64,000 nucleotides of DNA from Flavobacterium muglaense (GTDB lineage Bacteria > Bacteroidota > Bacteroidia > Flavobacteriales > Flavobacteriaceae): positions 1 through 64,000 of the forward strand of contig NZ_JACRUK010000010.1 in NCBI RefSeq assembly GCF_014305155.1, in the 5' to 3' direction. How positions within the stretch are numbered: the stretch's first letter is position 1; every line of letters starts with the position of its first letter. A program made the translations under genes and the position numbers. The notes beneath the pieces are model-generated. The model made no database searches, was not told the DNA's origin, and saw only the letters and a program-made list of their open reading frames with translations. Shown piece by piece: positions 163 to 29,081 of this stretch.

Positions 163-753
163 TTAGACATTTTCTTTTCTAACTCGCCAAAAATCCTCAG
201 TAAGTAATTTGTAAATTTGATAGGGTTTAATCCCCCAGTCTTCCAAATCCTCTTGTAATAGTACTTCCTTTGACCTCATAAATAAATCAAAAATATTGTC
301 TTCTAATTTGGTATGAACATTACTTAAAAGCCCTTGTCCATATCTCCAAATTTCATCTCTATTTTTATTTTCAACGCCTAGCAATAAAACATCTCCTTGG
401 TAAATTAAACCAATCTGGATAAAACCAAATTTATTCCAATTCTCTTCTTTGTTTTTATACTTTTCAATTTCATCTAATACCTTCTTATAGGGGAAAATAT
501 GGTCAATTGTTCCAAAATATTCTTCTCCATCAACTTGTACACCATCATAGGTAACAATTGATGTTAATGGGTAAAAATCCATTTCGTCATCATTCAAAAC
601 TATCTTTTCTAACTTGAATGACTTATATCCAATTTTAAATAATGTTATAAAATCCAAAAACTTAGGAGGTAGTTGATGATTACTCAATAATTCAGCAAAT
701 CCATCAGCGTTTTTGTCTACTTGTTGTAATAATTCTAAACCGATTCGATTCAT
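163..753 (-). CDS. SUKH (SMI1/KNR4)-like immunity protein
   Basis: A 196-aa soluble protein without signal peptide or membrane segment, starting 4 nt after the stop of the large toxin gene. The segment LPPKFLDFITLFKIG (about residues 28-42) resembles the first conserved helix of the SUKH fold, and the C-terminal part with LEDNIFDLF fits the helix that closes the fold. SUKH proteins are common immunity proteins for nuclease toxins in bacterial polymorphic toxin systems. The last position of the operon, right behind a gene with a C-terminal nuclease, is the classical toxin-immunity arrangement. Inference: it binds and neutralises the nuclease tip in the cytoplasm of producer and kin cells. Family assignment is by eye and of moderate strength; the role rests mainly on context. 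Confidence 0.6.
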   Translation of the reverse strand: MNRIGLELLQQVDKNADGFAELLSNHQLPPKFLDFITLFKIGYKSFKLEKIVLNDDEMDFYPLTSIVTYDGVQVDGEEYFGTIDHIFPYKKVLDEIEKYKNKEENWNKFGFIQIGLIYQGDVLLLGVENKNRDEIWRYGQGLLSNVHTKLEDNIFDLFMRSKEVLLQEDLEDWGIKPYQIYKLLTEDFWRVRKENV

Positions 754-3700: not shown

Positions 3701-6340
3701 GTTGCCATTGTTGGCTTTTTCGTTAGTGTAAAGCATGTAATAGGTATCGGTTTTATACTCGCTACCCAATGCATTTATTACCGCTTGGGTCACAAGTTGC
3801 TGCCCATTGGTGTACGTATTTAACGCGTCACTAGCTCCTGTTACTATAGTAGTACCCCAAGTGTTGGTAATCTTTTTCTTAATGGTACTTACATTAAAAC
3901 TGACTCCTGCTTTGTTGTATATTTCATTGAGTTTTGTTGCTGCATCGCTAGGAATTGGCGCATCATTGATACTCACAAGCACTACATTGACTTTTTTACC
4001 GCTAAGATGCCATAGGTCTATTTTACCAGCCACTTCGTACTTGGCTGTAGAGTCGGCTGGTTTTACGGTTGCTATAATAGCATCCTTAGCGTAGTCAAAT
4101 TGTTTGGTTAGCTCAAATGTCGCTACATTACCGGACCATGAAGGTTCTACTGCATTTCCGTTTTGTGTTTTAAAGACAAGGTTCTCTTTTGTTTTTCCAT
4201 TCGAGAAAATTGCTGTAGCATTTATTTGATCTGTACTAAACGGCGTGTTAGACAGTGCTTTGTAGTGTACGTAATAGTTACCACCATCAGCCTTGTTAAT
4301 AGTTTCGTAGGTACTATTAAGTGTTGTGTTTGTAGATAGGCCTGTGTCTTGATTGGGGTTGGTGTCAAAGGTGTATTTGCCGTTGCCTGGTTCAAATAGT
4401 ACTTCTACATCCTTAGATGATATCAAGTTCACATTGCCCGCGTTGTCCACACCTGTGGTGTTGCTTTTATTAGGTGCGCCACCATCTGCGGCTTGTCCTT
4501 CGGTAACTTCTCCTTGCTCGTTTACGGTAAAGGTTTTACCGTTTTTATCGGTAATCACTACTGGTGGTTTAGTATCAATTGTGGTTTCGGTACCGTTTTT
4601 AAGAACCAGAACTACTTGACCATCAACAACCTTTACGCCTTGTAATTCTACTTTGGTAGCGTCAAAAGTGGCAACCTCTCCTTTAAGTCCTGTTAAGTCC
4701 TGAATGATAGCATCAGCATCAAGGATACTTTTCCATTTAGGATCATAACTTGTCTCTACTACACCTCTGGTGAGTTGGTAATCCGTATTGATTTGAATGC
4801 TTTTAAAGTCTACTTTTATTCTAGTGTACTTACCAATGTTAACTGCTCCATCACTTAATTTGTTAGCAATATTAATTACCTTATTCAACTGCGCTAAAAA
4901 AGGAAGGGTTATATACCCCCAGCCTGAATAGTTGCCCTCACTACCATTTACTTCTACAGTTACAACAGGAAAGTCACCTGCAGTGAAAATTTCGCCCCTT
5001 TTTAAACTAGGAAGAGGAGTGTTGTTTGTAATTTTTATCTGTGGCATTATACCACAGTTGTAATAAGCAGTTTCGCTTTCCGTAGGTGTTGTAAACTCTT
5101 GTATGCCAGAGAAAGCAAAGCCTCCCTCGGGTGTACACTCGCCACCTACTCTAAATTCATAGGTAGTTCCTGCTTCAAGATTGTGAATAGTGCCTTGCTG
5201 GTTGTAGGCATATAGATCGAACCAGTCGTCATCGCCATAGCCTTTTTTACGGTATTGGATTTGGTACCGAATATGATCTGAATACAGCCATGTAATTTGT
5301 ACCGTTTGGGTGTTTTGGGCTTCGGACAGGACAAATTTTGGTACTTCGCAATTGCCTTGATAGGTAAAATTAAAGATTTCGCTATACCCATTATTTTTAA
5401 AGACTGAGGTTTCACTGATCCCGTCACTTACGATGGCTCGTACTTGCCAAGCGTATTTTTTACCTTCTAAAAGCGGAATGTCTGCCGGCCCATAAAGTAG
5501 GGTGCTGGTGTAGGTTGTGGTTTGATAAAGTGGTGGGCTGCTTAAAAACGCTGCTTGCGGATCTATTGTAGTATCCCACAATTCTTTAAGGGTAAACTCG
5601 TATTGAACTCCTGTGGCGTTGAGGTGGCGTGGTGTCCAACTAAAAAGAAGATTTTGTGGATTTTTGGCTGTTACTAAGTCGCCCCGAAAAGGCAGGTTAA
5701 GAATAGGGGGGTCGTTAAGTATTAAATAAACTGAGAAGCAACTCTTGCGCGACAATAATTGCCCAGAGAAGAAGTCATATACTTCAAAACAGAAATCATA
5801 CCTACCACTAGGTAAGGGTTGTGTATATTGTTGGGGTGCTATTCCCAAAAGGTTATTGAGTTCAAAATAAGGACGTAAATCCAAGTTTGATAGCCGTTGA
5901 TTAATTCCTCCATCCAAATAGATTGGTGTTGCTCCTGCAACAACATCTGTATTTTGAATGTTATAACCATTGCCTTCGATGCGCATTTTAAGTCGCACGC
6001 GTCGGCCTATTTCTTGTGTGTCTGTCAATAGGATATTGACAAATAGTTTTTCGGAATTGGTGGTTTGATAATCAGATAGTTTTAAGCTATATGGCGGTAT
6101 TAACTGCGGATTTACTTGAATAGGGTAAATTTGGGCAGATGCCTGCTGGAAGGTTAGTAATGATAAGAATACTGTGAGTAGTAGGCAGTAGGCAGTATGC
6201 AGTATAAAATTTTCAGTTTTCAGTGTTCGGTTTGGGGTGTTCAGTATGCGGTATGCGGTATGCAATATGCGGTATGCAGTATGTAGTATGCAGTTTACGA
6301 GTTGCAATGTGTTGATTATAGTTTGGAGTATTTTTTTCAT
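758..6340 (-). CDS. Large modular secreted toxin: TANFOR/FnIII-like N-terminus, metallopeptidase, C-terminal HNH nuclease
   Basis: An 1860-aa protein. Residues 1-69 hold a signal peptide (hydrophobic core LLLTVFLSLLTF, cleavage after QASA) whose n-region is stretched by in-frame heptamer repeats. Residues about 70-330 resemble the conserved front part of flavobacterial proteins annotated with TANFOR or fibronectin-like domains. An FnIII-like domain follows (about 333-420), then beta-rich segments. A zinc-peptidase motif HELGHGVFGLKH begins at H903, with LLMDYG behind it as a possible Met-turn. A Gly/Ala-rich hydrophobic stretch (AAVIGAIVAAAP) lies near residue 1450. The C-terminal ~150 residues contain the VKFNKYGHPEL and WHHHQDGSSMYPV motifs (W1816, H1817-H1819) and HTGG, typical of HNH/Endo VII-superfamily toxin tips. 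Known for the family: such tips cut nucleic acid. Inference: the peptidase may release the tip. ATGA overlap with the preceding gene; immunity gene 4 nt downstream. No T9SS sorting domain at the C-terminus, as expected where the tip is the payload. Confidence 0.75.
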   Translation of the reverse strand: MKKILQTIINTLQLVNCILHTAYRILHTAYRILNTPNRTLKTENFILHTAYCLLLTVFLSLLTFQQASAQIYPIQVNPQLIPPYSLKLSDYQTTNSEKLFVNILLTDTQEIGRRVRLKMRIEGNGYNIQNTDVVAGATPIYLDGGINQRLSNLDLRPYFELNNLLGIAPQQYTQPLPSGRYDFCFEVYDFFSGQLLSRKSCFSVYLILNDPPILNLPFRGDLVTAKNPQNLLFSWTPRHLNATGVQYEFTLKELWDTTIDPQAAFLSSPPLYQTTTYTSTLLYGPADIPLLEGKKYAWQVRAIVSDGISETSVFKNNGYSEIFNFTYQGNCEVPKFVLSEAQNTQTVQITWLYSDHIRYQIQYRKKGYGDDDWFDLYAYNQQGTIHNLEAGTTYEFRVGGECTPEGGFAFSGIQEFTTPTESETAYYNCGIMPQIKITNNTPLPSLKRGEIFTAGDFPVVTVEVNGSEGNYSGWGYITLPFLAQLNKVINIANKLSDGAVNIGKYTRIKVDFKSIQINTDYQLTRGVVETSYDPKWKSILDADAIIQDLTGLKGEVATFDATKVELQGVKVVDGQVVLVLKNGTETTIDTKPPVVITDKNGKTFTVNEQGEVTEGQAADGGAPNKSNTTGVDNAGNVNLISSKDVEVLFEPGNGKYTFDTNPNQDTGLSTNTTLNSTYETINKADGGNYYVHYKALSNTPFSTDQINATAIFSNGKTKENLVFKTQNGNAVEPSWSGNVATFELTKQFDYAKDAIIATVKPADSTAKYEVAGKIDLWHLSGKKVNVVLVSINDAPIPSDAATKLNEIYNKAGVSFNVSTIKKKITNTWGTTIVTGASDALNTYTNGQQLVTQAVINALGSEYKTDTYYMLYTNEKANNGNAGFMPLLRQFGFVFDGENRTLAHELGHGVFGLKHPFSKDADQRKTNLLMDYGGGELLSHNDWEMIYAPGLQLYQFTQGSSDGAQIAEGFNYIMPNHKSFRFQTNDGKKDSDIINVDHINNGGHPNGTLYAFNINGKEYEFGFDSKKTTEAFYEKGSDIPYNNAYNTTFEEQNYRLLIQQAANSCNYYLAVRKKPNLLNPVLTILPDEVQIPAINCSKVLLNEASVNAGTIDCSLIAEIKIDNPGSIAFRVNRAVKECLQAIKTSERVSMINALLPYLGNIEDAKSKIALEAMNREIGDTKTYVSNVFNAGDQYDVGRAIAQLTSTGLENNDFQREIINIVKKNNYALLVKMLGECDFDEVTHPFIDEVSIAFMANPNVAKTTKTIEVLGETLRYPSSLMPYIIGLKPNMSISSDKDQLNAQYTVLSKLPITFNSNGTINLKESYSEYFKGKGIDDMTFPSLYDNPTADPFEATVFLIGIDNNELGLQKDKVIVMPAIWGLCIEKAIAEHKKARIWRHVGNGAAVIGAIVAAAPSGGTSIVGAIAIIGGEAAVLDELMMMSKDDVTFEQYQSNIELYEKWDLVYNSIMMVDGLVNAPELAKTLGGLVQRMRSISYLKIAGKSLKPEFVTALKLALQDIGKYKNIAVIKLGIKNTINYTKFAFKSTDNFIDIIIHAKDNKFYVVVEGVVQEKSSKEIISIIDNTPTGKTARLLSCNDEAAAIALSIETKKPFYASDGWVEINKNGDVFSEKDFYLYNRGTRGTKGSNYTKGNATEGVEYLRLGDGVSGVGKTLEQVKSLLSNAPSWLKTNDDLLRRLANESDDFIKKVDDYYKNAIPSNTPSGFNGEGVYSGVKFNKYGHPELTPHVSSPDHIVKIEMKGNYTSDMTDAKNKLVQQAFDGDASKVRKSIDPNTGNQSSGWSPFQIKQADGSWSEPYTWHHHQDGSSMYPVKKSVHDAIIGKHTGGREIVTKYPELKGFFNQP
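6174..6306 (+). repeat. Heptameric tandem repeat tract (GTNNGCA type), 19 in-phase units
   Basis: Nineteen consecutive 7-bp units in uninterrupted register. Most begin GT and many fit GTATGCG, GTATGCA or GTAGGCA. The tract lies inside the 5' end of the toxin gene and encodes the repetitive HTAYR-type peptide ahead of the signal-peptide core. Three heptamers equal seven codons, which explains the 7-residue peptide periodicity. Confidence 0.9.
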
Positions 6341-6726: not shown

Positions 6727-6775
6727 TCCAAACTGCCCACTGCAAACTGAAGCCTGCCTACTGCAATCTACTTAC
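6727..6775 (-). repeat. Heptameric tandem repeat tract, 7 units, inverted relative to the tract at 6174-6306
   Basis: Seven in-phase units of the form TGCNNAC on the plus strand (TGCCCAC, TGCAAAC, TGCCTAC and variants), which is GTNNGCA on the minus strand. The tract lies in the spacer between the PKD lipoprotein gene, whose stop at 6772-6774 falls in the last unit, and the four-helix-bundle gene. Confidence 0.85.
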
Positions 6776-8262
6776 TCTTTCATCACTTTTATATCAACAA
6801 CAATATAAGAATTTGCGCCATTGGCAATAAAGCTTTTAATTTTTATGGCTCCTTTTCGCCCATCTTGAGTTTTAAATAGCACGATGCGTGGCACTATGCT
6901 ATTGTCAAAATCTTGTAACCCTCCAGCTGTTTCGGTAATCGTTAAATTGGATAATGTGGCATCAGTAGTCATTGCATCAAATTGTGCCACAGATAAAGAG
7001 CTTGAACAATTACAGGATTCTTGACTATTGATAAACTGAGTATGTGTGGCGTTGGGGATTGCGTTAAAGCTTAAAGTCTGTACTTGATCGGGCGCAATAA
7101 ATTTGTTGAAAGAAAAAGTTGCACTAAGTCCGTAAAAAGCGATATCAATCAAAGACCCGTTAGAATTATTTACTTCTTGACTGTTGTACAGCTCACGTGT
7201 TGTTGTAGAGAAAAAAGCAGCTGTAGCATTCGAGCTATGTGCGGTGTTGATTCCTAGCTTCACATTACTAAAAGTTCTTAAATTTGTGTTCGATAGTACT
7301 GTTATGATTTTGGTTGCAGTTTTAGTTTCTTTACCATTAGTAGCCTCAAGTTTTAGTGTATAGGTTCCTGCTGTTGCAAAGGTAATTTTAGGGTTTGTTG
7401 CTGTACTCACTGATGGATTTCCTCCTATGCAAGTCCAAGTATAACTAGTGGCACTCACGCTATTATTAGTCATAGTTAAGCTTAGTGGCGCTTGTAAATC
7501 ATCATCTTCGAATGCCAATTGGTACTCAAATGCGGCTGCTAAATAAGGTGCTACAGTAACTGTTTTTTGCAGTTGGTAGGTTTCCTTGCCGTTACTTACT
7601 TCTAATGTTATGGTGTGATCTCCAGGTTCAGTGAAGATAACGTTTGTTGGGTTTTGACTATTGGATGTTGCAGGAGTACCATTTTGAAAAGTCCATTTGT
7701 ATGAACTTGCTCCTGTTGTGGTATTCGTAAATGCGACTTCCATAGGAGAAAAAGTATCTTTGACAATAGCGGTAGTGAAACCGGTTACTATCTTATCGTT
7801 GATAACAATGGCTACTTCTTTTGTTTCAACTATCCCATCACGGTTCATCGCTGTTAATTTGATACTATAGTTGCCTTCTTTCGTGTAGACAGCGGTTCCT
7901 GGATTTTGTTTGGTAGAACTGGTTGTTTCAGCACCTTCAAATGACCAATCATAGGTGTCCGCACCAACTGTTTTATTGGTAATTTTCACTAGGACGGGTA
8001 CCGAGTAATCATTATTTACTACCTCAATACTAAAATCAATAGTAATAGGTACTGCCTGTTCTTTTGTACAGCTAGACATAAAGAGTGTTATGCCAAGTAA
8101 ACACGTCAAGGCAGTACCCATCATTTTAAAAGAATCCAGCACAGATCGACTATTTTTTCTTTTGCCATAATTCATAGCTGGTTGTTTTAAATAGTGATTC
8201 GCAATATTCTGTATACTAATAAAGCCCTGCCGACTACTACATGTGTTTTTAACTGCTCTCAT
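6772..8262 (-). CDS. PKD-domain lipoprotein
   Basis: A 496-aa reading frame. A lipobox (LFMSSC, Cys65 in the longest form) ends a hydrophobic segment, so the mature protein should be lipid-anchored. Three PKD-like domains follow (about residues 75-155, 157-235 and 238-320), each with a YxWxF-type core and a GxYxIxL strand, then a C-terminal domain of unknown type (about 325-496). The first ATG at 8262 overlaps the preceding stop (TAATG), which favours coupling. Starts at 8175 (residue 30) or 8124 (residue 47) would give a more normal signal peptide; the last yields 18 residues before the Cys. It probably acts with the adjacent SprB-type adhesin at the cell surface; that is inference from gene order. 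Confidence 0.8.
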   Translation of the reverse strand: MRAVKNTCSSRQGFISIQNIANHYLKQPAMNYGKRKNSRSVLDSFKMMGTALTCLLGITLFMSSCTKEQAVPITIDFSIEVVNNDYSVPVLVKITNKTVGADTYDWSFEGAETTSSTKQNPGTAVYTKEGNYSIKLTAMNRDGIVETKEVAIVINDKIVTGFTTAIVKDTFSPMEVAFTNTTTGASSYKWTFQNGTPATSNSQNPTNVIFTEPGDHTITLEVSNGKETYQLQKTVTVAPYLAAAFEYQLAFEDDDLQAPLSLTMTNNSVSATSYTWTCIGGNPSVSTATNPKITFATAGTYTLKLEATNGKETKTATKIITVLSNTNLRTFSNVKLGINTAHSSNATAAFFSTTTRELYNSQEVNNSNGSLIDIAFYGLSATFSFNKFIAPDQVQTLSFNAIPNATHTQFINSQESCNCSSSLSVAQFDAMTTDATLSNLTITETAGGLQDFDNSIVPRIVLFKTQDGRKGAIKIKSFIANGANSYIVVDIKVMKE

Positions 8263-11200
8263 TATTTAATTATAATTTTTCGAATTTCATTTCCTTTTGG
8301 AGTTTCTAGCAATAAAAAGTAGATTCCAGCGGGTAAATTCACATTGTAATCTACGCTATACACATTTGCATTATTAACTTGTTTGTCATTTATTGGTTGT
8401 CCAGAGTTCAAGCTGTAAAGACGTAACGAAATGGCGGCTGGTTCTTGTAATTTTATATCTACAGTAAACGCTCCAGTTGTAGGATTAGGATGCGGTACAA
8501 AATCAATGATAAAAGGAGTCGTTGCATCACCAATATCAGGCAGTAACCTTGCTTCTTCAACAATAATAGGTTTAGTGTAATCTTGCTGACATTCTCCTAG
8601 AAACGAGCGCAATGTTACCTGATACGCACCTGCTTGAACAAACTTAATTGTAATGGTTTCGTTCGTTTTTTTAACTATTTCAGCACCTCTAGGTAAAATC
8701 CATTCTACTGTCGCGCTTATGGGGTTGCTGGTGTTTACCAAAATTATTTCTTCATTGGCAAACGCTTGCGACGTAAGTAAGAATTGAGAATTAATACCAG
8801 CATTGGTTTTAAAGATCTCGATACTGCCCGTGCCCGTACATCCTTGACTATTGGTTACTTTGGCCGTATAAACACCAGCATCAGTCAAGGTTACTTTTGG
8901 GGTGCTACTTATAAAACCATTTGTTGAAGTCCACTGGTATGTTGCTGCAGCATCTGGAATTGTAATGTCTAAATTTTGAAATTGATTGTTGCACAGTGTT
9001 TTATTACTACCCAAGTTCACAACAATCGGACTTGGATTTGTAATTTCATAACGTACTTGAACTTCGCATCCTTTTTGATCTTTTACAGTTGCCGTGTAAA
9101 TACCTGGGCATAGATTGTCTATTGAGGCTGTGTTTTTACCTGTATTCCAATTGATACTGTAGGGAGCTACGCCTCCTGTAAGCGCTAAATCAATTTTTGC
9201 ATTGCAGGCATCGGTACAGTTTAACTGTGTTATTGTTGCTGTTACATCAAGTACTTTTGGCAAAACAACGTTGTAGGTTTGCATAATTTTACAACCATTG
9301 ATATCGGTAATAAATACGAGATAGTTTCCTGGTTTTACGTTGGTAAGATTTGGTGTGGTATCACCTGTGTTCCAACTGTATTTGTAAGGTGAAGTTCCGC
9401 CCTGTGCGTTAGTTGTTATAGTCCAATCGTTTGCCGTTCCGCAGTAAGTGTAGCTACCGTTTAAAGTTGCTGTTAATTGCTGTGGTTGTAGTAATTGGTA
9501 AGTCACACTTTGAGTTGTGTTTCCGTTTTTGTCTGTTACAATTACGAAGTAAGAACCGGCGCTTACTAGGTCTAAATTGATTTGATTGCCTATCGAATTA
9601 GCTTCTCCTTCTTTATACCAAGCATACGTATAGGGAGCCGTACTTGTAAAAGGAACTCCTCCAGTAGCTGTAGCTCTTAAACTTCCGTTCTTGTCATTGT
9701 AGCAAAGAATATTGTTTTGAGTGGTAACGGTCACTGCAAGTACTGGTGGTTGATTTACGGTGTAGGTGCTAGTTACAGTACAGTTTTGTACATCAGTTAT
9801 AACAACAGTATACACTCCAGCAGGAACATTGGTTAAACTACTCGTTGTTGCATTTTGTTTGACTCCATTGGCGTCAAGCCATAGGTAGCTGTAGGGAACT
9901 GTTCCGCCATTTATAGCTAGGATAACCGAGCCATTAGAAAGACCAAAACCTGTAGTCTGAGTTGTAGTGTTGGAAACTATGGTTAATACACTAGGCTGAG
10001 TAATGTCAATTACAATGGTTTTCAAAGAATTATTTTCGTTGTAAGAACATTGATTTCCATCACGTACTTGAATTTGGTACCTGCCTTTCGGTAGGTTGGT
10101 AAAGGTTGTTGTATTTGTTGTTAAAAATGATGTCCAAGCTCCATAAGGATTGTTGTCTATTTTCATTCGATACTCATAAGTTGAGGTTCCGCCTGTAGCT
10201 GTTAATGTAATTGCTCCGTCATTTTTTTCGAAACAACTTACATTATTCATTATGTAAGTAACTGCTACTGCCTGTGGTTGGGTAACGATTAATGTTTCGC
10301 TTTTTTCAGAAATACCATCTGCATTATTAACGATGAGGTAATAAGATCCTGGTGCTACATTAGTAAGTAAAACATTATTTGTACCTATTTTTGTGTTCGT
10401 GATTGCATTGTACCAGGTATAAACATTTCCGCCTACACCGCCTACGGTTATTGCCTCAATTTGGGCGTTGCTATTTCCGTAACAGCTTACTGGGTTTTTT
10501 AATACAATGTTTGCAATCAGTTCTCCAGGATTTGCGAGGTTATAAGTGTTTTTCAAGATACAGCCCAAAGCATCAGTTACCGCAATGGTGTAAATACCAG
10601 CAGGTAAATTGTTAGCAATATTAGTTGTGCTTGATGTTGCCGTTTCTTGAGCAACAATTAGTCCATTGTCATTTGTCCATTTATAACTGTATGGCGCTAC
10701 TCCTCCTTTTATCTTGATGGTAATTGTTCCGTCAGATTGTGTTCCTGAAGGACGTACCAAGCTGATAGCTGTAAAATCATATATTGGCGGTTCAGTGATA
10801 GTGTAGCTTTGCTTTATTGTACAACTGTTTTCATCAGTGATAGTAACAGTATATATACCTGCGGATAAAGCGGTAATGTTTGGAGTGTTTATGCTATTTG
10901 ACCAAGAGTACGTATAATTACCAGTTCCACCAGATACTGTAAGTTCAATACCTCCTGTGCGTTCTCCATAACATAAAACATTTGTTAAGGTTGCATTTGT
11001 AATCTGTAATAAAGGAGGCTCGCTTAAGGTAAAATCTTTTCGTTTACTGATGCCATTGCTATCCGTTACAATTAGATAGTAGCTGCCTGCTTGCCTAGTA
11101 AAACTAGCGATGGATTCCATTTTTACACCGGCGCTGTTGTACCATTTATAATCATATTGAGCTGCTGGTGCTAGGTAACCTCCAGTTGCGTTTGCAGTCA

Positions 11201-14200
11201 AAGTGCCATTTCCACCGTTACAGGCAATAGGTGTTTCGGTAATTGTTAGTTGTATTTCAGGTATTTCATCTACTATAAAAAGTTGCTCAACTGTACAATT
11301 ATTTGTATCTGTTAAGATTAATTTATAAGTGCCTGCAGGGATACCAACAACCGTAGCCGTTGTTTGCGTCAAAGCGGAGTTTGAGCTATCATACCAGGCA
11401 TAGTTATATTGATTTGATCCACCAATGGGAGTTACTGTAATTGAGCCGTTAGACAGTCCATAACCTAATGGTTTTGTTAGGGTGTAATTACTTATTTGTA
11501 GTGGTTGTGCAGGTTCATCAATGACGTAACTGTTAGTTGAACTACAATTGTTTTTGTCTGTAACGGTAACGGTATAAGTGCCTTTGTATAAGTTGTTTAA
11601 AAATGATGTTGTTTTTTGAGGGCCCCAAGAATAGGTGTAATCTCCGCTACCACCCGATACGGCTAATGTAATACTTCCGGTTTGCGCGCCATAACACAAT
11701 ACATTTGTAATGGTTGGTACAACCTTTAGTGGGGTGGGTTGTATAATGGTGAGCTGTGAAGTCCCTTTAATGTTGTTAGCATCCGTAATCGTGAGGCCAT
11801 AGGTTCCTGCTTCTCTATCTTTTAAGTCGAGTTCGCTGCCTAAATTAAGAGTAGGGTTGGCAATTGCGTACCAGTTGTATTGATATGGTTTTACCCCACC
11901 TGTAACATTCGCGTGTAGTATTCCATTAGTATCGTTATAGCATAAATTAAATGCCGTTTGTTCAATTGTAAGTTGAAGCTTTTCTGGTTGTTCAACAAGG
12001 AAGTTTTGTACAAATGAACAGCTGTTTTTGTCTAAAATGGTTAGTTGATAAGAACCTGCATCTAATCCCTGAGCACGGTTGCTTGTAGCAATTACTACAT
12101 CAGAGCCGGTTTTTGTCCATTGGTAAGTATAAGGACTAGTTCCTCCAGTTGCGATCACACTTACTGAGCCATCTGCTGTTTCAAATCCAGAAAGCATTTT
12201 GTTGTCAACAGTTGCTATGCTTAATGGTGCCAAGGGTTGTTTGACTTCTATATTGTTTAATACTACTTGGCACAGGTGCGCATCGGTAACGGTTATGTTG
12301 TAAAACCCAGCCGAAATATCGGTATTGTTTGCTGTTAATTTATTATTGCTCCATGCGTAAGTATATGGAAGAGTTCCGCCTGTAACATTTATGCTTATGC
12401 CTCCGGTCGCGGTGTTGTAACAAAGGGCATCGGTAGTATTTACAGTTTCAATTTGTAGTTTGGTTGGAGCTGCCAACAGTAGCTCTTCAGAGCTTCGTGT
12501 TATGCTGTTGGCATCGGTAATTTGTACTATATACGTTCCAGCAGCTACATTTGTAATCCTAGGTTGTGTAAAAGTCATTGGCGTATAGCTGTTTGAACCA
12601 TCTTTTATAAACCAGGAATAGGTGTAGGGCGGGATACCACCGTTTCCAGTTGCCTTTAAAATACCATCGTTATTATTAAAACAGGAAATAGTATTTTCGA
12701 TACCAATAGCCACAGTCAATAAAGGTGGGGCAATTAGTTTAATTGTCGTACTGGCTGTACAACTTGTATTTATTGTAGTTAAATTATAATTAGCGTCGGT
12801 TACTGTTAGGGTGTATTGACCGTCGCCAATTCCTGTCACAGTAGCGGTAGAGCCAACGATCTTGCCCAAAGTGTCTTTCCATTGGTAATTGTAAGGGGCT
12901 GTGCCTCCTTGCGCAATTGCGGTGGCTTGACCATCTGTAGCCAAATATGCGCTAGGATTTGTTTGACCATTAATAGTGATCGTAAGGGCATTAGCAGGCT
13001 CAGTAATCACTATAGTTTTTACATTTTCACAGTTATTATGGTCCGTTACTTGTAATGTATAGCTGCCGCCTGCTAATCCGTTTACCGTACTAGTATTACC
13101 TTTAGTCAGTCCGTTGCTATCAGTTAGTGCATAAGTATATGGCGGTGTACCTCCTGAGGCAACAATTTTGAGTTCTCCATTTGCCGCTGCTTTGCATAGT
13201 ACATTTGCTTGGGTATAGATGACAACTAATGGAGCAGGTTCGCTGATTGTGAGTATAGACTGGGCTGTAATGTCATAAAAATCTTTAATGATTACTTTAT
13301 ACGTTCCAGCAGAAAGTCCTGTGGCGGTACGATTTTTTTGTCCTATTGTTGCATATACGCCGCCGGTTTCTTTAAACCATTCATAGGTGTAGGGTTCAGA
13401 TGCAAATGGAGTTCCACCTGCACCGGTAGCTGTCAAGGCACCGTTTGACGCATTATAACAAGTTATAGCTTGTTCCTGTATAGTTACTTCGAGCAGTTGT
13501 GGGTCAATTAGGTCAAAGGTTGAGGTAACAGTACAACCGTTTTTATCTTTAGCTGTTAGCGCATATCGGCCCTTTGTAAGATTTGTGATGTCTTTATCTG
13601 TACTATAGACGGTAACATCCGTATCTTTTATCCAGCTGTAAGTATAAGGTGCTGTTCCTCCTTGTGCTGTGGTTGCTATTGCTCCAGTGCTATCGCCAGG
13701 AACGGTAAGCGGTTGAATATTGTTTGTAGTTATTGACAGCGGATCTATTGGTGGATTTTTAAAAATTATTTCGGCAGTAGTAGTACAACCATGATCATCA
13801 GTTACTATTAGGTTATATGTTCCTGCTTGGAGCATAGCTCTATCTTTTGTCCCTGTTGTCGTAAGATCGTTCCATTTGTATGTATAAGGTGCTGTTCCGC
13901 CAGTAACGGTGGTCACTATAGCGCCATTATTACCACCGTAACAAGATATGTCTGTAGTTGTGGTGCTAATAGTTAATGGTGCTAAGGGTTGAGATAAAGG
14001 AAAGCTGGCAGACAACTGAGTGATTTTATTATCATCTGTTACTGCTACTTTGTAGATACCTGCCGGAATGTTTTCTAAAATTTTTGACGTTTTTGAGGCC
14101 AATTCGGTATCCACTCCTCCAATTACTGCATACCATTGATACGTATAGTCAGTTCCGGAAGGACCTCCATTTGGATTGGCTTCTAGTGCGCCTTTTTCTC

Positions 14201-15779
14201 CATAGCAGGCTATGGCTTGTTTTTGGTTTATACTTACTTCTAATAGAGCGGGGTTGTTTAAAGATATAGATTGCGGAATGATAACACAACCATTAGCATC
14301 AGTTGCTTCAAGGGTATAGAATCCTGCTCCAATGCCAGATAATACAAAATGATGAACAGTATTCGTTACCGTTTTTGTAACTGTAGTTGGTACAACAGTG
14401 GTCCCATTTTTCAAAACTGGGGTGTAGTCTATTGTACCGCCGGTGAGGTCAAATTGTATAGAGCCGTCTTTGCTATTGTGCTTTAAAGGGTCCAAAGGGA
14501 TGACTTGACTTATTGTTAACGCTGTTGAAGGTTGACCAATAGTAACATCAACGGATTCATTGTTAGCTGCTGTATGGCCGATACAGTTATTTCCATCACG
14601 TACTTTGATATTGTGTTTCCCCGCCGAAAGCCCACTAATAGTTGGAATTGTTTCATTTGTAAATGATGTCAAAGTACCGCCGTCTAATTGGTACTGATAA
14701 GTGCCCGTACCACCACTAGCAGTTATATTAATCTGGCCGTCGCTACCGCCATAACAGGAAACATTTTTACTATTTGTTGCTGAAAAAATAACAGGTTTAG
14801 GGCTTTCTATGGTAAAGCCATCTTCAGTTCCCTCTAAGCTATCCCAAGTTGGATTTGGTGCGGTAGTATCAATAGTTTGGTACCGTACTTTGTATGTGCC
14901 GGAGGGTATGGCTTTGCTTAGTGGCCAATTATAAGTATAGGTATCGTTCCCATTATCAACTAAGACATTGGTACTGTCTTGGGCATAAAGCGAATATTTA
15001 TTTGGTATAGTGGTAGAATCTGATAGAAAAAACAAACTTGCAACTAATTTTTTACCAGTAGGTAAATTTGGTTTTAATAGCATTTGAAACCCTCCATCTG
15101 ACGAAGTAGAACATTTAGGTTGGGTTGTTATAAAGTCTGTGATTTTTGGTGAGCAAGAGATAATATGATATGTTACGACATTTGTATAATTACTATTATA
15201 ACCTGTTCTAAATTTAACTTGATTTTCTGTAGTTTGACCTAACAAATCAGAAAGGACAAAGGTTGTTACAGGTGTGTTTAAGTTTGAAGGGAAGTCAACC
15301 CATGCAGATCCATCATAACTATATTGCCATTCGTAGCCGAGTTCTAAAGTTATTTCATCAGTTAGACATAATTTGTCATTGGAAAGGGTTGGTTCTGTAA
15401 TGTGCAGTGGGTAAAGTGTTTGCCTAAAGCTACAGCCGCTAAAAGTAAAAGGAAAATTAAAGTTTGCTTTAGTCCTAGTAAATCCTTCGGTATATGTACA
15501 TGGATATGATGTGTTAAAATCTTCTGCATAATTATGTACAGCAGTAGTCACGGTTTCAAAACCATTTGGTATTGAAAAGAAGTCATAATACTCCTTTGAG
15601 ATAGTGCTTGCAGTGGCTTGGTAAGAAATATCTCCTACATATCCGGCTGTACTGCCAATGTTTAAATCTCCGAAATTGGCGTGGCGTATTCCGATTATTT
15701 TTGTTTTTACAAGATATCCATAATCTTGTCCAAATCCTAAAAGCGGTAACAATAATAATATGTAAACTAATTTTTTCAT
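8262..15779 (-). CDS. SprB-repeat giant surface adhesin with T9SS type A sorting domain
   Basis: A 2505-aa protein. The signal peptide is MKKLVYILLLLPLLGFGQ. An N-terminal region of about 330 residues is followed by about 23 SprB-type repeats of roughly 80-85 residues (nt about 14800 to 9030), each with the SGGTGxYTYxW and AGTYTVTVTDxNGC signatures. An Ig-like and a PKD-like segment come next, then a C-terminal sorting domain (PNPTTGAFTVDI, PAGIYFLLLE, KIIIK end). SprB of Flavobacterium johnsoniae is a much larger mobile adhesin used in gliding; this is a smaller relative, not SprB itself. The repeats follow a strict a-b-c order visible in their cysteines (see findings). Genes are tightly packed: 3 nt from the FnIII gene upstream and a 1-nt overlap downstream. 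Function as adhesin or scaffold is inferred from domains. Confidence 0.9.
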   Translation of the reverse strand: MKKLVYILLLLPLLGFGQDYGYLVKTKIIGIRHANFGDLNIGSTAGYVGDISYQATASTISKEYYDFFSIPNGFETVTTAVHNYAEDFNTSYPCTYTEGFTRTKANFNFPFTFSGCSFRQTLYPLHITEPTLSNDKLCLTDEITLELGYEWQYSYDGSAWVDFPSNLNTPVTTFVLSDLLGQTTENQVKFRTGYNSNYTNVVTYHIISCSPKITDFITTQPKCSTSSDGGFQMLLKPNLPTGKKLVASLFFLSDSTTIPNKYSLYAQDSTNVLVDNGNDTYTYNWPLSKAIPSGTYKVRYQTIDTTAPNPTWDSLEGTEDGFTIESPKPVIFSATNSKNVSCYGGSDGQINITASGGTGTYQYQLDGGTLTSFTNETIPTISGLSAGKHNIKVRDGNNCIGHTAANNESVDVTIGQPSTALTISQVIPLDPLKHNSKDGSIQFDLTGGTIDYTPVLKNGTTVVPTTVTKTVTNTVHHFVLSGIGAGFYTLEATDANGCVIIPQSISLNNPALLEVSINQKQAIACYGEKGALEANPNGGPSGTDYTYQWYAVIGGVDTELASKTSKILENIPAGIYKVAVTDDNKITQLSASFPLSQPLAPLTISTTTTDISCYGGNNGAIVTTVTGGTAPYTYKWNDLTTTGTKDRAMLQAGTYNLIVTDDHGCTTTAEIIFKNPPIDPLSITTNNIQPLTVPGDSTGAIATTAQGGTAPYTYSWIKDTDVTVYSTDKDITNLTKGRYALTAKDKNGCTVTSTFDLIDPQLLEVTIQEQAITCYNASNGALTATGAGGTPFASEPYTYEWFKETGGVYATIGQKNRTATGLSAGTYKVIIKDFYDITAQSILTISEPAPLVVIYTQANVLCKAAANGELKIVASGGTPPYTYALTDSNGLTKGNTSTVNGLAGGSYTLQVTDHNNCENVKTIVITEPANALTITINGQTNPSAYLATDGQATAIAQGGTAPYNYQWKDTLGKIVGSTATVTGIGDGQYTLTVTDANYNLTTINTSCTASTTIKLIAPPLLTVAIGIENTISCFNNNDGILKATGNGGIPPYTYSWFIKDGSNSYTPMTFTQPRITNVAAGTYIVQITDANSITRSSEELLLAAPTKLQIETVNTTDALCYNTATGGISINVTGGTLPYTYAWSNNKLTANNTDISAGFYNITVTDAHLCQVVLNNIEVKQPLAPLSIATVDNKMLSGFETADGSVSVIATGGTSPYTYQWTKTGSDVVIATSNRAQGLDAGSYQLTILDKNSCSFVQNFLVEQPEKLQLTIEQTAFNLCYNDTNGILHANVTGGVKPYQYNWYAIANPTLNLGSELDLKDREAGTYGLTITDANNIKGTSQLTIIQPTPLKVVPTITNVLCYGAQTGSITLAVSGGSGDYTYSWGPQKTTSFLNNLYKGTYTVTVTDKNNCSSTNSYVIDEPAQPLQISNYTLTKPLGYGLSNGSITVTPIGGSNQYNYAWYDSSNSALTQTTATVVGIPAGTYKLILTDTNNCTVEQLFIVDEIPEIQLTITETPIACNGGNGTLTANATGGYLAPAAQYDYKWYNSAGVKMESIASFTRQAGSYYLIVTDSNGISKRKDFTLSEPPLLQITNATLTNVLCYGERTGGIELTVSGGTGNYTYSWSNSINTPNITALSAGIYTVTITDENSCTIKQSYTITEPPIYDFTAISLVRPSGTQSDGTITIKIKGGVAPYSYKWTNDNGLIVAQETATSSTTNIANNLPAGIYTIAVTDALGCILKNTYNLANPGELIANIVLKNPVSCYGNSNAQIEAITVGGVGGNVYTWYNAITNTKIGTNNVLLTNVAPGSYYLIVNNADGISEKSETLIVTQPQAVAVTYIMNNVSCFEKNDGAITLTATGGTSTYEYRMKIDNNPYGAWTSFLTTNTTTFTNLPKGRYQIQVRDGNQCSYNENNSLKTIVIDITQPSVLTIVSNTTTQTTGFGLSNGSVILAINGGTVPYSYLWLDANGVKQNATTSSLTNVPAGVYTVVITDVQNCTVTSTYTVNQPPVLAVTVTTQNNILCYNDKNGSLRATATGGVPFTSTAPYTYAWYKEGEANSIGNQINLDLVSAGSYFVIVTDKNGNTTQSVTYQLLQPQQLTATLNGSYTYCGTANDWTITTNAQGGTSPYKYSWNTGDTTPNLTNVKPGNYLVFITDINGCKIMQTYNVVLPKVLDVTATITQLNCTDACNAKIDLALTGGVAPYSINWNTGKNTASIDNLCPGIYTATVKDQKGCEVQVRYEITNPSPIVVNLGSNKTLCNNQFQNLDITIPDAAATYQWTSTNGFISSTPKVTLTDAGVYTAKVTNSQGCTGTGSIEIFKTNAGINSQFLLTSQAFANEEIILVNTSNPISATVEWILPRGAEIVKKTNETITIKFVQAGAYQVTLRSFLGECQQDYTKPIIVEEARLLPDIGDATTPFIIDFVPHPNPTTGAFTVDIKLQEPAAISLRLYSLNSGQPINDKQVNNANVYSVDYNVNLPAGIYFLLLETPKGNEIRKIIIK

Positions 15780-15782
15780 AAC

Positions 15783-17990
15783 TTAATATTTTACATTCAG
15801 TTTAGTGATTTCACTCATGCGTCCATCTTTAAACACCGCTCTAAATAAGTAAGTGTATTCATTATTGGGTTTAACCTGCTCATCAACTATGCGGTTTACG
15901 GTGGGCAATACATTGCGAAACAAGGTGATGGGTTTGTCTTTCTCTCCCTTATAAATAGCTATTTCGGCAACATTTACCTCTTTGTATAGCGACCAGTATA
16001 GTTCAATGTAATGGTTGGTTTTGTCAACAAAACTATTCAAGCCTCTTATGGCAGGCGGCAAGCTTGTTTTAGGAATAATTACGGTTAAGGCTGGCGCTTG
16101 ATCTGATTGTAAGCCACTATCGTCTACTGCCACAATTGTGTAGCTGTATTGATTGCCCTCGACAACTTGATCATCAGTCCAGGTTTCAGTAGGCAGTTTT
16201 TCAGTTTGAGCTGTCTCCGTATTGTTCACCGCTGACTGCTTACTACTTTCCTCCCCCTGCTTACTGCCCCCTGCCGACTGTCCTCTGCTTACTGTCGACT
16301 GCCGACTGCTGACTGTATGCAATAAAACCCAATCGGGACTATTTTCTTCTTTTCTATAGATTTCATGTTTAACTACATCTTCACTAGAGCTGCTTGTCCA
16401 GTCCATAATCACTTTACTATCCTTTATTTGATAGGCTTTAAAAATGGGTTGGGTGGGTTTTATAAAATCGGGCTTTTTTAATTCTAAAATATCTGAGGGC
16501 TCAGACATATTAAAACGTTGGTCAACAGCAACTAGGGTGTAGTACACCTTTGTGTTTAAGTTTTTTACTCCTACACTGTCCAAGTACACCGTTGTTAAAT
16601 GTGGAGAAATTGTTATTTGAGAGTATTCTTCGTTTCTATTGTTTCCTCTAAATATGCGGTATCCTAAAATGTCTTTGTCTTTGTTAGCCTCCCATTGCAA
16701 GCGTACTACACCCAAGCTATCAATAGTCCCTTTAAAACCCATTGGTTTTACTGGCGGAATCGAATCTACGGGTTGTACCAAAGCAGGAAACGAGGTGCGA
16801 TTACTGCCGTTTAGGCCTATGGCTGTTATTGTTAAATAGTTAGTAGGTTGTAGATTGTCATACAATATTTTACGGGCGTTGGGTGGTATGTTTTTAACAA
16901 TTACTTTATAGTCGCCGTTTACTTTGTCAGAACGGTTTAGTTCAAAGCCCTTGATTTCTTTATTGCCTTCTTCTAGGAAATCCCATTCTAATATAATACG
17001 CTTGTCGTCCAAGTAATTCTTGGTAGTAATGTGCGGTACAAAAGCAAGTAATTTTTCGCCTTTACCAAATACTATAGCAGAGGCTGGGCTTGTTTCTCCA
17101 AAAATGGTTTTACCTAGGATGCGATAGTGATAGGTTTGACCGTTACTAATAGAGTCAATATAAAACATACGTTTGGCATCTGATTTGTCACTATTGTTTA
17201 AAGTGGTTATAGGTAAATCATTGAGTCTTTTAAATGTAATACCATCATCAGATCGTTCTATAAAATAGCTGTTGTACAATTGTTTGTGGATGGCGTAGTT
17301 CCAGCTTAACATTGTTTTTCCTTCCAGGAAAGTCCCAGATAAATCAAGTGGTTTAGGCAGTGCTTCATAATCTTGCATTCCAATAAAAACTCCACCGTCC
17401 TTAATAAGCAGTTCAGTCTGGGGTACTAATGAGGTTAGTTTATAAACATATTTCTCATTAGCATTTACCTCTGTGTCTATATAGCCTAATCCTGCCATTT
17501 GTGCCGTTTCAAAGTCTTGATCTGTGGCATATAATCCCCAAGTAAAACGTTGTTCTTGCTCTTCGGATAGATTAATGATGGATTGAAGATCTTTAATACC
17601 ACCCAATTCAAACTTTTCACCATATAAGGACTGTCCCATTACAGCAGCATTGTCATTGGTCTCGATTATTTTTGCCCATTGGTCTAAAGGTTTCGGTTTA
17701 AAGATTCCAAGTTTTTTTTCAATAGGCTGCGCCAAAGTTATTTTATTCCGTATGATGGTGTAACGCTTTAGTTCATAACCGTAACTATTTAATTTTCGCC
17801 AAGCTTTGGCCGTAGTAACAGCCCAACGCAACATGATTTTCCCGTCTTGTTTAGGTCTTGCTGTTACCATAATTTGAGGTTCTGGAGCGCTAAGAGAATC
17901 TTTTTGCTGCGCATCAACTCCTGTTGCAATAAAACAAAATGCAAGGATTAGTAGAACTAATAGGCTTCTGTTTCTTTTATTTAAATTCAT
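15783..17990 (-). CDS. Secreted protein with about six fibronectin type III domains
   Basis: A 735-aa protein with signal peptide (LLVLLILAFCFIATGVDAQ). About six FnIII-like domains follow, recognisable by LxWxx strands and YxYxI/V strands: roughly residues 35-190, 215-310, 315-405, 410-505, 510-640 and 645-735. No sorting domain or lipobox is seen, so it may stay periplasmic or associate with the outer-membrane partners encoded next to it. Oddity: about 40 residues rich in Ser, Gln and Gly (from SSRQSTVSRGQ to TEKLPT) interrupt the fifth domain. They are encoded by heptamer repeats at 16189-16320 and look like an in-frame insertion. The stop lies 3 nt before the SprB-type gene. Specific role unknown. 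Confidence 0.8.
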   Translation of the reverse strand: MNLNKRNRSLLVLLILAFCFIATGVDAQQKDSLSAPEPQIMVTARPKQDGKIMLRWAVTTAKAWRKLNSYGYELKRYTIIRNKITLAQPIEKKLGIFKPKPLDQWAKIIETNDNAAVMGQSLYGEKFELGGIKDLQSIINLSEEQEQRFTWGLYATDQDFETAQMAGLGYIDTEVNANEKYVYKLTSLVPQTELLIKDGGVFIGMQDYEALPKPLDLSGTFLEGKTMLSWNYAIHKQLYNSYFIERSDDGITFKRLNDLPITTLNNSDKSDAKRMFYIDSISNGQTYHYRILGKTIFGETSPASAIVFGKGEKLLAFVPHITTKNYLDDKRIILEWDFLEEGNKEIKGFELNRSDKVNGDYKVIVKNIPPNARKILYDNLQPTNYLTITAIGLNGSNRTSFPALVQPVDSIPPVKPMGFKGTIDSLGVVRLQWEANKDKDILGYRIFRGNNRNEEYSQITISPHLTTVYLDSVGVKNLNTKVYYTLVAVDQRFNMSEPSDILELKKPDFIKPTQPIFKAYQIKDSKVIMDWTSSSSEDVVKHEIYRKEENSPDWVLLHTVSSRQSTVSRGQSAGGSKQGEESSKQSAVNNTETAQTEKLPTETWTDDQVVEGNQYSYTIVAVDDSGLQSDQAPALTVIIPKTSLPPAIRGLNSFVDKTNHYIELYWSLYKEVNVAEIAIYKGEKDKPITLFRNVLPTVNRIVDEQVKPNNEYTYLFRAVFKDGRMSEITKLNVKY
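16189..16320 (-). repeat. Inverted heptameric repeat arrays inside the FnIII gene
   Basis: Two to three units read GTAGGCA-like on the plus strand (16189-16209). After a spacer, fourteen in-phase units read TGCNNAC-like on the plus strand (16223-16320), that is GTNNGCA on the coding strand. The head-to-head layout is the same as the two tracts bracketing the four-helix-bundle gene, but without a gene between them. The host reading frame stays open. Confidence 0.85.
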
Positions 17991-18056: not shown

Positions 18057-21000
18057 TTAAAATGGATTCGTATATGTGAATATTGCCGAACTTCCTTTTA
18101 TGTTTCCAGGCAAGGTGTATTGCATTTTGATCTTGTAATCGCCTCTTTTTATTGACGGGAATACACCGTTGATGATGTAATTATATTTTTGTATCTCAGT
18201 TTGATATTGCGAACTTTTGTTTAAATAAGTATTGACTATTTTATACTGAATATCCATAAAATCTTGTTTGTAGTACAATGGTAAGTTATATCGATACGGC
18301 ATCCTTACATCCAGTAAAGGGAAAGTAGGATTGTTGTCTAAGTAACTCGAGTACCACGTTAAGACGTCAATTCCTTTTTTAGGAACAATTCCCAATAGAT
18401 CCGTGTTTCTATTTACTGTAAACTGTGGTTGCAATGGATACCCTTGATATATTAAAGGGTAAATGCTATTGGTAAAATAGTTGTCATCTAACACGGCTTC
18501 TACGTTGATCATAGGTGCGTAATTAGTTGTTGGTCCTCCTATAAGTTCTGTCAAGCCAAATCTTTCAGTGACTTTTACATCCGTTTGAATAGCATGAACA
18601 TCAGAGTAGATAGGTTCTAAATAATTGTTAGTTACTTTTTTATCTTGCACTTTATCAGCAAAGGTGTTGTACGCACTGGTCGAAAAATTGTAAACTAATA
18701 CGTCTACCGTCGTTGCATCTTTGCTTACGGATTCGGCTTCACGATTCTTAACTTCAATGGAATTTCCTTCCTGGCCTGTACTAGTAGCTGTATACTTTAC
18801 CTCTTTTACAGTGGTATTGCTAGCTTGGGCTGGAGGTGTGCTAATGATTCTAATTGTATATTTTTTACTGTTGGTCATTTTTGCAAAATTGAACTGTAAT
18901 TGCCTTTGCGCTTGATCGTAAGCAAGTCCAGATGCTTTGACGGTACCTGCGTCACTTTCAAAATTAATCTGCTGTGTCCAGTTGGATACCGGCGGAAACA
19001 AGTACGGTTGCCCTCTTTTTAACTTCAGATAACCGCTGTTGCGTTCTGATTGATAAAAGTATTGTTGGTCTACAATAGGGTATGAGTATTCAATATTACT
19101 AATAGGAATGTAATCTGGTGCCTCTCCTGTAGTGAAAATTATATCTTTTACTTCTTTGGCAACTTGACCGTCTTGGGTTAATGTAACCCATGATTGTCCT
19201 TTCATCTCTTGGAAACTTACCGCTACACTCACCGCAATTGGGCTGTTTGGAGGTAAAATATCTGTTGAAATAAAGTTAGCCGCATCCTTACTTTCATTCC
19301 ATACAATAGTTCCTTCAATAGGTTTGCCATTTGTAGTAACGGTATATTTATCAAGAAGAATACGATAGGTTTTAGTTCCTTTGTCATCCTCTAACTCAAA
19401 AGGGGTGTTAATTCGAGTATTGAATACTACTTGTGGTACTGTAAATACGTCTACGCCTGTTGTTCCTTCTTTTGGATTGATATCTGAAATAATTTTCATA
19501 CCTCCCAATGGGGCGCCACCTATTAACTCACATTCTTTACCAAGTTCGATTTTGAATCTAAAACGTCCTTTTACCATTCCACCTAGTAGATCAAAATAGC
19601 CCCCCATGTATCCTCTAAACCAAGAAGGATTGGGTAGTTTTGCTTGCATTAGTACAGCAGCTCCGGCTTTGATGATAGGTATCTTTTTGCGAACAAATAG
19701 TAATTTTACATTAATACCTAACTCTCCTTGTAAATAAACATAAGCTTGTCCATTGGCGTACCATCCATCGATACCGATGGGTCCGGTTCCTTCGCATGCC
19801 GCTTCACCGTAGTCTTTGATCATGATATCAAAACCTAGACCAGCTTGAAAACGGGCGTAAAACACCAAAAATGACATATCGCCAGTGTCTAGACTTAAAT
19901 TCATTCCAAACGCAAAACCACGTCCATCTCCAAGTGCGTTTAAGTCACGCATGTAATCTAAAGTTTGCATATCGACGCCAAGGATTTCGGCTACAATTGC
20001 TGGCGGTGGTGGGCTTCCGGGTATATTGTCTCCAATCATTAGATAAGAGGTGGCTTCAAGTTTAAAGCTTCCCAAACCTAGTTTTAAGCCAACTCTATCC
20101 GTTGGAGTTCCTGCATGTAAGTACCATTCGTCACGTCCGGCATGAAACACAGCCCATCCCGCACGTCCTTTAGGCCCTACACCTTGAAAGAACCCTCCAG
20201 GAGTATTAATAAATATTTCCATTTCACTATGAAAAACGTGATTTTGAAAATCCATTTCCATGGAAAAATTTGCATCAATTCCAACATCAAAGCTTAGTCC
20301 GTCTTGTGGAAATGCTACTTTACTGTATTCCACAAGGTTAGATTCTTTTAATTTGTCCATCGGAAGGTTTTTGTCGCCAAAATCGTTGATTTTGTTTTCC
20401 ATTTTGGTCAACTTTTCTTTGAATTTATCTCCAAATTTGAAGTCTAATGCTTTTACGATATGACCTTCCCCAAAGAAAGAGACTCTGTTTAGTCCACCAT
20501 GCGTATTGAATGCCATTTCAAATCCTACTTTACCATTAAAGGCTTTTTCATTTGCGAGCGCAAACCCTATCAAAGCTCTAAAGCCTAATCCTGAGTTGAC
20601 ATCTGGTATGTACGATAATCCAGATGGTATTCCAGCGGAGTATTCGTTTGGTTTCTTTGTCATTTTGTAGTATGCTCCACCTCCAAAACCGTTTACTATT
20701 GCGGGCCCAATGTATACTTTTACGGGTGAATTGGATAGATCAACATAAGCATCTACGTACCAGTATCTAAAGTCAGTTTTTCCAAACCAAGCAGAAGCAG
20801 AGACCTTTACGCTATTGAAATCGGCGTCTAATTTTCCGTAGAATCCGTTGCCATATACTGGGTCGTTATCCTTGATATCTACAAACCCCTTCATTTTTAT
20901 AGCACCAAGGTCAGCTTCTATGGAAATTCTGTTGATTTTTATGCGGTCGTATTTCCATCGGTTTAGCCCTTGGTCTTCTTTAAAACTTGCAATAACGGAA

Positions 21001-27453: not shown

Positions 27454-27456
27454 TTT

Positions 27457-27491
27457 GATTTTAGATTTAGGAATTGAGAGTTTAGATGTCG
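27457..27491 (-). repeat. Degenerate heptamer tract before nuoN
   Basis: Five in-phase 7-bp units (GATTTTA, GATTTAG, GAATTGA, GAGTTTA, GATGTCG) begin four bases upstream of the nuoN start. They share the 7-bp period of the tracts at 34586-34620 and 55654-55720, but not their exact unit. Confidence 0.5.
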
Positions 27492-27632
27492 AATGTTACA
27501 TTCTGATCTTCGGTCTACTATTTACCTATTTTATTTTTATTATTATTTACTATTCTTTATTTTCAACTTTTCATGGTCCAAAATACCTTAATGGTTCGTT
27601 TTGGGACAATGACTAGGCTTACCTTTTTATGT

Positions 27633-29072: not shown

Positions 29073-29081
29073 AGTATAAAA

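Follow-up and report, generated by a model that had tools for sequence, protein, structure and literature searches.

Introduction

The SprB-type fibres of Bacteroidota include gliding adhesins and grappling hooks. In PMC10994853, SprB is described with a type B sorting domain, which is the domain modelled by TIGR04131 according to Jana et al. (2020, PMC7073777). The same paper reports SprB, PKD and Fn3 domains and type A tails as enriched beside TANFOR toxins. Disulfides are reported for SprF-GldK and PorG-GldK in PMC12635249. The literature searched contained no paper joining SprB repeats with disulfides; the original paper on grappling hook protein A (GhpA) lay outside this search and may describe them. 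The repeat is a known one, the pairing rule presented below seems to be undescribed, and its version with regularly skipped staples would be new.

In Gram-positive pili and adhesins, isopeptide bonds covalently lock the domains of the fibre. As is generally known, such links resist stretching, as the staples proposed here would, but they are mostly placed inside a domain, whereas the link proposed for SprB repeats is a disulfide between neighbouring domains.

Results and Discussion

A SprB-Repeat Gene in a Toxin-Like Operon

The gene under study was found in the window (the whole 64,000-nucleotide stretch of Flavobacterium muglaense DNA that was analysed) within a run of six open reading frames on the same strand:

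163..753 (-): 196-aa ORF downstream of the nuclease gene, no family found
758..6340 (-): 1860-aa fn3 protein with a C-terminal WHH/colicin-DNase-like nuclease domain; N-terminal part found at at least 5 of 18 loci searched
6772..8262 (-): PKD-domain protein, 496 aa, next gene downstream of the SprB-repeat gene; homologues at at least 4 of 18 loci searched
8262..15779 (-): SprB-repeat surface protein (the window protein), 2505 aa, with a type A T9SS sorting domain (from the ORF, Pfam and NCBIfam)
15783..17990 (-): 735-aa protein; homologues at at least 11 of 18 loci searched, 10 of them adjoining a SprB-repeat gene
18057..22886 (-): 1609-aa protein of no known family; homologues at at least 7 of 18 loci searched

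Since the stretches taken at these 18 loci are short, the neighbour counts are lower bounds. The window protein matched PF13573 in 16 stretches (E 2.6e-144, 469 bits, cut-off 28), and its C-terminal tail matched the T9SS model Por_Secre_tail (PF18962; E 8.9e-14, 52 bits, cut-off 27) and the type A sorting model TIGR04183 of NCBIfam (35.2 bits, cut-off 23). The latter was the sole sorting model listed for this protein at E ≤ 0.001, in a model set from which TIGR04131 was perhaps absent. By eye, the N-terminus of the window protein resembles a Sec signal, and that of the 735-aa protein resembles a signal peptide.

The SprB/CTD, PKD and Fn3 neighbours of a toxin gene are all present at this locus. 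Like the TANFOR neighbourhoods described in PMC7073777, it places a SprB-repeat T9SS substrate close to a WHH nuclease and to proteins of the PKD and Fn3 kinds. The TANFOR model TIGR02542 was absent from the models listed for the six operon proteins and gave no match in the genome of this strain, and the 14 control genomes were likewise without a match. The 1860-aa fn3/WHH protein is likely to be an antibacterial polymorphic toxin, and the 196-aa ORF is, by its position, a candidate immunity protein of the nuclease. Judged from this setting, a gliding adhesin is a less likely role for the window protein than a surface fibre belonging to a contact-dependent toxin locus. It has the same repeat and the same early and late cysteines as the SprB family, but it differs from SprB in skipping both cysteines at every third junction, in its type A tail and in its toxin-like operon. 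The longest SprB-repeat frame of the same genome (C54, 5950 aa; 5592 aa in L039) consists mostly of two-Cys repeats.

Further along the window, a DsbA-family oxidoreductase is encoded at 25192-25908 (-). Since by eye it has no obvious signal peptide, it is probably cytoplasmic and not the maker of the disulfides proposed below. Positions 26080-30965 (-) hold three consecutive NADH:quinone oxidoreductase/antiporter-type membrane subunits of an ordinary kind.

Cysteine Code of the Window Protein

A profile with masked cysteines located 24 consecutive repeats in the window protein, and the true letters were read on the masked alignment. Repeats with both the early and the late Cys were labelled B, those with the late Cys only L and those with the early Cys only E. 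The array reads BLEBLEBLEBLEBLEBLEBLEBBB, i.e., B-L-E seven times followed by B-B-B, and the three positions of the triplet are called a, b and c. The parts of the protein, in gene order on the minus strand, are as follows:

14802..15143 (-): degenerate domain 0 (limits set by eye), with early C223 and without a late Cys; its partner under the rule is C399 of repeat 1
9258..14801 (-): repeats 1-22, the a-b-c (B-L-E) super-repeat, with proposed staples at a-b and c-a and none at b-c
Rule pairs of repeats 1-22, first half: 342-498, 525-665, 613-749, 774-917, 862-1007, 1033-1170, 1120-1254
Rule pairs of repeats 1-22, second half: 1280-1412, 1362-1495, 1520-1653, 1603-1740, 1766-1911, 1849-2000, 2026-2163
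Rule pair crossing into repeat 23: 2113-2238
8805..9257 (-): repeats 23-24; in repeat 23 there is one more Cys in the A-B loop, and C2224 in the E-F loop
8520..8804 (-): PKD/Ig-like domain after repeat 24 (by eye), with the late-type C2397, whose proposed partner is C2263 of repeat 24
8265..8489 (-): T9SS type A C-terminal sorting domain (Pfam, NCBIfam)

The sequence-only reading had described a strict triplet pattern over 23 repeats, with the early Cys in the order + - + and the late Cys in the order + + -. This pattern is observed in repeats 1-22 but is lost in repeats 23 and 24, both of which carry the two cysteines. The rule drawn from it, that the early Cys of repeat n is present when, and only when, the late Cys of repeat n+1 is, was confirmed throughout the protein, including repeats 23-24, where the period fails. 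It also extends, as had been stated, to the degenerate domain before repeat 1 (C223-C399), and further to the one after repeat 24 (C2263-C2397), with both domains placed by eye. At the end of the array, the rule would pair C2113 with C2238, and either C2188 or C2192 with C2314. In repeat 8, a longer loop places the late Cys, C1007, some 8 residues farther on, outside the reach of a narrow zone.

Overall, 19 proposed pairs take up 38 of the 42 cysteines of the protein, one pair being inside a repeat (the other A-B loop Cys of repeat 23 with C2224), and the four left over (94, 116, 138 and 209) are all N-terminal. The period of the super-repeat is 253 residues, calculated as (2113-342)/7, close to the value of about 255 given before. 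With cysteines masked, repeats of the same class showed 31.5% identity compared with 29.0% for the others, and none of 5000 label shuffles gave a difference as large.

Since one triplet copied seven times satisfies any fixed phase rule, adjacent pairs in this protein are not independent. A single periodic protein is weak evidence, and therefore the coupling was tested in other proteins.

Coupling of Early and Late Cysteines across Proteins

Of 149 genomes from the family, 126 gave a match to the whole window protein, and of 118 from the phylum, 27 gave one to PF13573. From 100 stretches (one without usable content), 117 open frames including the window protein were obtained, with 1721 repeats, and were aligned with every Cys masked as X. 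Repeats without usable anchors or less than 40 residues after the preceding repeat were excluded, as were junctions with anchors not 60-115 residues apart or interrupted by a frame end, giving a usable set of 1497 junctions in 103 frames. Loci L001-L038, L099-L127 and L168-L247 are outside these counts. Frames with X runs were split at the runs for the 1497-junction count rather than omitted, whereas they were omitted from the phi values that compare zones, from which the long frames of L083, L075 and L091 are absent. In the alignments, row set A1 was picked for reading BLEB, so that its invariant Cys columns follow from the selection, and row set A2 was picked as EBBB or BBBB.

Extended to other SprB-repeat proteins, as the sequence-only reading had proposed, the rule was kept at 1453 of 1497 junctions; in 2000 trials with shuffling inside each protein, the number was 1348 ± 6.8 and never above 1369. 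When the 15 BLE frames were left out, it was kept at 1233 of 1275 junctions, and the shuffles gave 1217 ± 2.4 (maximum 1229). Relatedness was controlled by clustering the junctions at 40% identity with cysteines masked, which resulted in 359 clusters. Between these, phi was 0.86 for early(n) with late(n+1), -0.10 for the two cysteines within a domain and -0.08 for late(n) with early(n+1). Early(n) and late(n+1) were both present in 315 clusters, both absent in 34, and mismatched in 5 and 5. The both-absent clusters came from the BLE set in 27 cases and from outside it in 7 (L052, L061, L065, L081, L137, L150 and one PKD-like frame of L049), with the clearest skipped junction outside the set in L052, which reads BBBBLEBBBBBBBBBB. 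The earlier statement that no other pairing fits was too strong for the window protein alone, and it is across proteins that the other pairings show no association.

Before clustering, phi for early(n)-late(n+1) with the wide late-Cys zone, which was adopted after the exceptions had been seen and hence not blindly, was 0.79 in all frames and 0.36 without the BLE set (within domain 0.14). With the narrow zone, the values were 0.57 and 0.17 (within domain 0.07), lower because the late Cys lies further along longer loops. Both cysteines are present at 1377 of the 1497 junctions, and 56 of the 103 frames have both at every junction and are uninformative on pairing. Among the 47 varying frames, 28 strictly favour early(n)-late(n+1), and 7 fit another pairing slightly better. 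The number of cysteines per junction is even at 1426 of 1497 junctions (shuffles 1323 ± 7.8), an excess that is marginal without the BLE set (1207 of 1275; shuffles 1192 ± 4.3, maximum 1207). The last repeat of 89 arrays, counted against pairing, has the late Cys only in 36, both in 51 and neither in 2.

Exceptions and Substitute Cysteines

The rule is broken at 44 of the 1497 junctions, with a linker Cys at 27 of them, an E-F loop Cys at 2 and neither at 15; these counts come from related proteins and overstate independence, since among the linker cases L076, L077, L079, L085 and L086 form one group, and L134, L133 and L151 form others. A late Cys without the early Cys before it was found at 32 junctions, and 27 of these have a linker Cys, versus 27 of the 1377 junctions with both. 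The opposite case, an early Cys without the following late Cys, occurs at 12 junctions, two of them with an E-F loop Cys. Six of the remaining ten come from large SprB-repeat frames (L039, L074, L088 twice, L093 and L094) and are all the same kind of domain pair, in which a domain with the early Cys is followed by one without the late Cys and no substitute is visible. Among domains with an A-B loop Cys, a second such Cys and an E-F loop Cys tend to occur together (25 of 41 versus 22 of 1498), and repeat 23 of the window protein shows the same combination. In the Ig-like fold, the linker, the A-B loop and the E-F loop are all at the C-terminal end of domain n, so these substitutions point to one spatial site.

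In L134, L133, L085, L086 and L077, repeats without the early Cys have a linker Cys at that junction instead. Alternate repeats of L134 carry, in addition, a CxxxC motif plus an E-F loop Cys, and when linker Cys are left uncounted, this array follows the rule at 10 of 19 junctions. The SprB-repeat array of L083 (3426-aa frame) has a period of two, with further cysteines near strand A and in strand G, which suggests an added disulfide inside the domain beside the staple. It looks irregular with the wide zone because these extra cysteines fall inside it; with the narrow zone the rule is kept at 11 of 14 junctions, no better than late(n)=early(n+1).

Predicted Fold and Likeness to GhpA

Two four-domain fragments of the window protein were modelled with AlphaFold2:

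10758..11750 (-): a-b-c-a fragment, pLDDT 95.5, pTM 0.77
8775..9758 (-): E-B-B-B control with both cysteines at all three junctions, pLDDT 95.5, pTM 0.73

Both models consist of beta domains in the Ig-like strand order, in which the early Cys is predicted in the loop joining strands A and B, and the late Cys in the F-G loop, immediately ahead of strand G. In an Ig-like fold, these two loops lie at opposite domain ends, and the A-B loop of domain n faces the F-G loop of domain n+1. Given this geometry, the early Cys of one domain and the late Cys of the next should meet in the predicted arrangement. Together with the coupling over 1497 junctions in 103 frames, the predicted strand order supports the inter-domain pairing put forward in the sequence-only reading.

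The closest system with deposited structures is GhpA of Aureispira sp. CCB-QB1, which gave a clear match in the profile comparison (E 1.6e-137). In a structural comparison covering about four domains, the first 7 rows are its PDB entries 9flp, 9fls, 9flu-9flx and 9g8b (Z 12.0-11.0, rmsd 7.1-8.2, 16-20% identity). The next row is an unrelated Ig chain with Z 10.4, so the fold match with GhpA is indecisive on its own. Taken as a test for a GhpA-like array, the tandem Ig-like domains match GhpA in both profile and fold. Read by eye, the GhpA gene (L168, 2784 aa of it) has tandem two-Cys repeats like SprB repeats, and in this part no junction is skipped and one repeat has extra Cys, whereas the window protein skips every third junction. 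The deposited GhpA structures bear directly on the pairing.

The Triplet Variant and Its b-c Junction

Seventeen frames are of the BLE type, 15 by the label rule and two (L047 and L048) added after reading, and their array sizes differ by about one to seven triplets. Both cysteines are absent at 67 of their junctions and just one is absent at 2; this is the informative count, since the L-E junctions used in the search for replacement residues are without both by definition. In the 17 frames, no conserved pair replacing the lost cysteines was found at b-c. At the former Cys positions, Gly-aromatic residues are loosely preferred in b, and the loop is variable in c. The missing replacement pair says only that the constraint is gone.

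The best match of 55 of 62 triplets is in another protein and not in their own array, indicating that the three-domain unit is old, and a recent amplification of triplets was rejected for this reason. The triplets of the window protein have diverged (best matches 36-51% identity), yet their cysteines are kept. The earlier suggestion of growth by duplication of three-domain units holds in so far as the array is built of triplets, but these are old.

Upstream of the BLE-type gene of L043 (18-6142, +), five consecutive frames of 390-445 aa have 1-2 repeat-profile matches each and look like tandem paralogues.

Alternative Explanations

The strict period of repeats 1-22, and the slightly greater likeness of same-class repeats when their cysteines are masked, would also be expected if copying had started from a three-domain unit with this Cys pattern by chance, in which case the pattern would be uninformative on pairing. 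Such a founder effect is improbable, because the rule is kept where the period fails, both in repeats 23-24 and in arrays of other make-up, the non-BLE frames exceed all shuffles, the coupling survives clustering, and the cysteines were retained in spite of the divergence of the window triplets. For the window protein taken alone, a mixed scheme with early and late Cys bonded inside the a repeats, and late(b) with early(c), is a full alternative that uses every Cys of the triplet, and the sequence separation of late(b) from early(c) is just 25-27 residues. It is hardly credible, however, since, by the predicted strand order and general Ig geometry, the A-B loop and the F-G loop are at opposite domain ends, and neither of its pairs is associated across proteins (phi -0.10 and -0.08). 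The disulfide is something we infer here, and the cysteines could instead be free or link neighbouring fibres, GhpA being said to form heptamers, with the coupling caused by shared binding of a metal or a partner at the junction. The one-to-one coupling at junctions and the linker substitutions fit an intrachain pair best, which makes this reading very improbable.

A different question is whether the b-c junction is a regular flexible hinge every three domains, which would be compatible with staples at the other junctions. The loss of both cysteines together (67 junctions versus 2) and the lack of a conserved substitute pair at b-c agree with it. However, the spacing does not, since the median distance from the F-G loop to the next GG anchor is 44 residues at b-c, no longer than at a-b (46) and c-a (45). 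The fragment with a b-c joint also had a pTM of 0.77 versus 0.73 for the fully stapled one, pTM being a blunt measure and the fragments differing in sequence. The flexible joint proposed in the sequence-only reading was thus not supported, and we regard a hinge at b-c as rather unlikely.

Proposed Stapling and Mechanics

From the coupling and the predicted fold, it is highly probable that the early Cys of domain n pairs with the late Cys of domain n+1 as an inter-domain disulfide. SprB repeats would be Ig-like domains joined end to end. At a stapled junction, the C-terminal end of domain n would present its early Cys on the A-B loop, the N-terminal end of domain n+1 would present its late Cys on the F-G loop, and the two facing cysteines would form a disulfide staple. 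About half of the sampled SprB-repeat frames could have a staple at every junction. In the window protein and its relatives, an old a, b, c unit would keep the a-b and c-a pairs and be without both b-c cysteines. Covalent links in some of the largest surface fibres of bacteria could then be read from a simple code in the sequence. The rule predicts Cys partners in proteins such as SprB and GhpA (for GhpA, in its own numbering, 2076-2213, 2158-2298 and 2240-2381), and it would make the stretchiness of the fibre a testable property encoded domain by domain.

With full stapling, the shortest covalent route would be about 5 nm per domain even if all domains unfold, and the fibre would be nearly inextensible, while with every third staple omitted, about one domain core in three would pay out length. 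Control of stretch by skipped staples is a tentative proposal derived from the geometry, the pairing and the chain order. With similar reserve, serial stapling may make SprB-type fibres in Bacteroidota, from gliding adhesins to grappling hooks, almost inextensible, and the BLE fibre beside the toxin may pay out in regular steps. An Ig-like domain measures about 4 nm when folded. With each residue taken as 0.36 nm and each staple as 0.6 nm, the computed shortest covalent path was 4.7-5.4 nm per domain in four fully stapled arrays, which would leave such a fibre with almost no room to extend. For repeats 1-22 of the window protein, the contour computed for complete unfolding is about 193 nm in the oxidised state and 661 nm in the reduced one. 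The computed path was 8.8-10.1 nm per domain in three BLE arrays and 27-31 nm per domain without staples.
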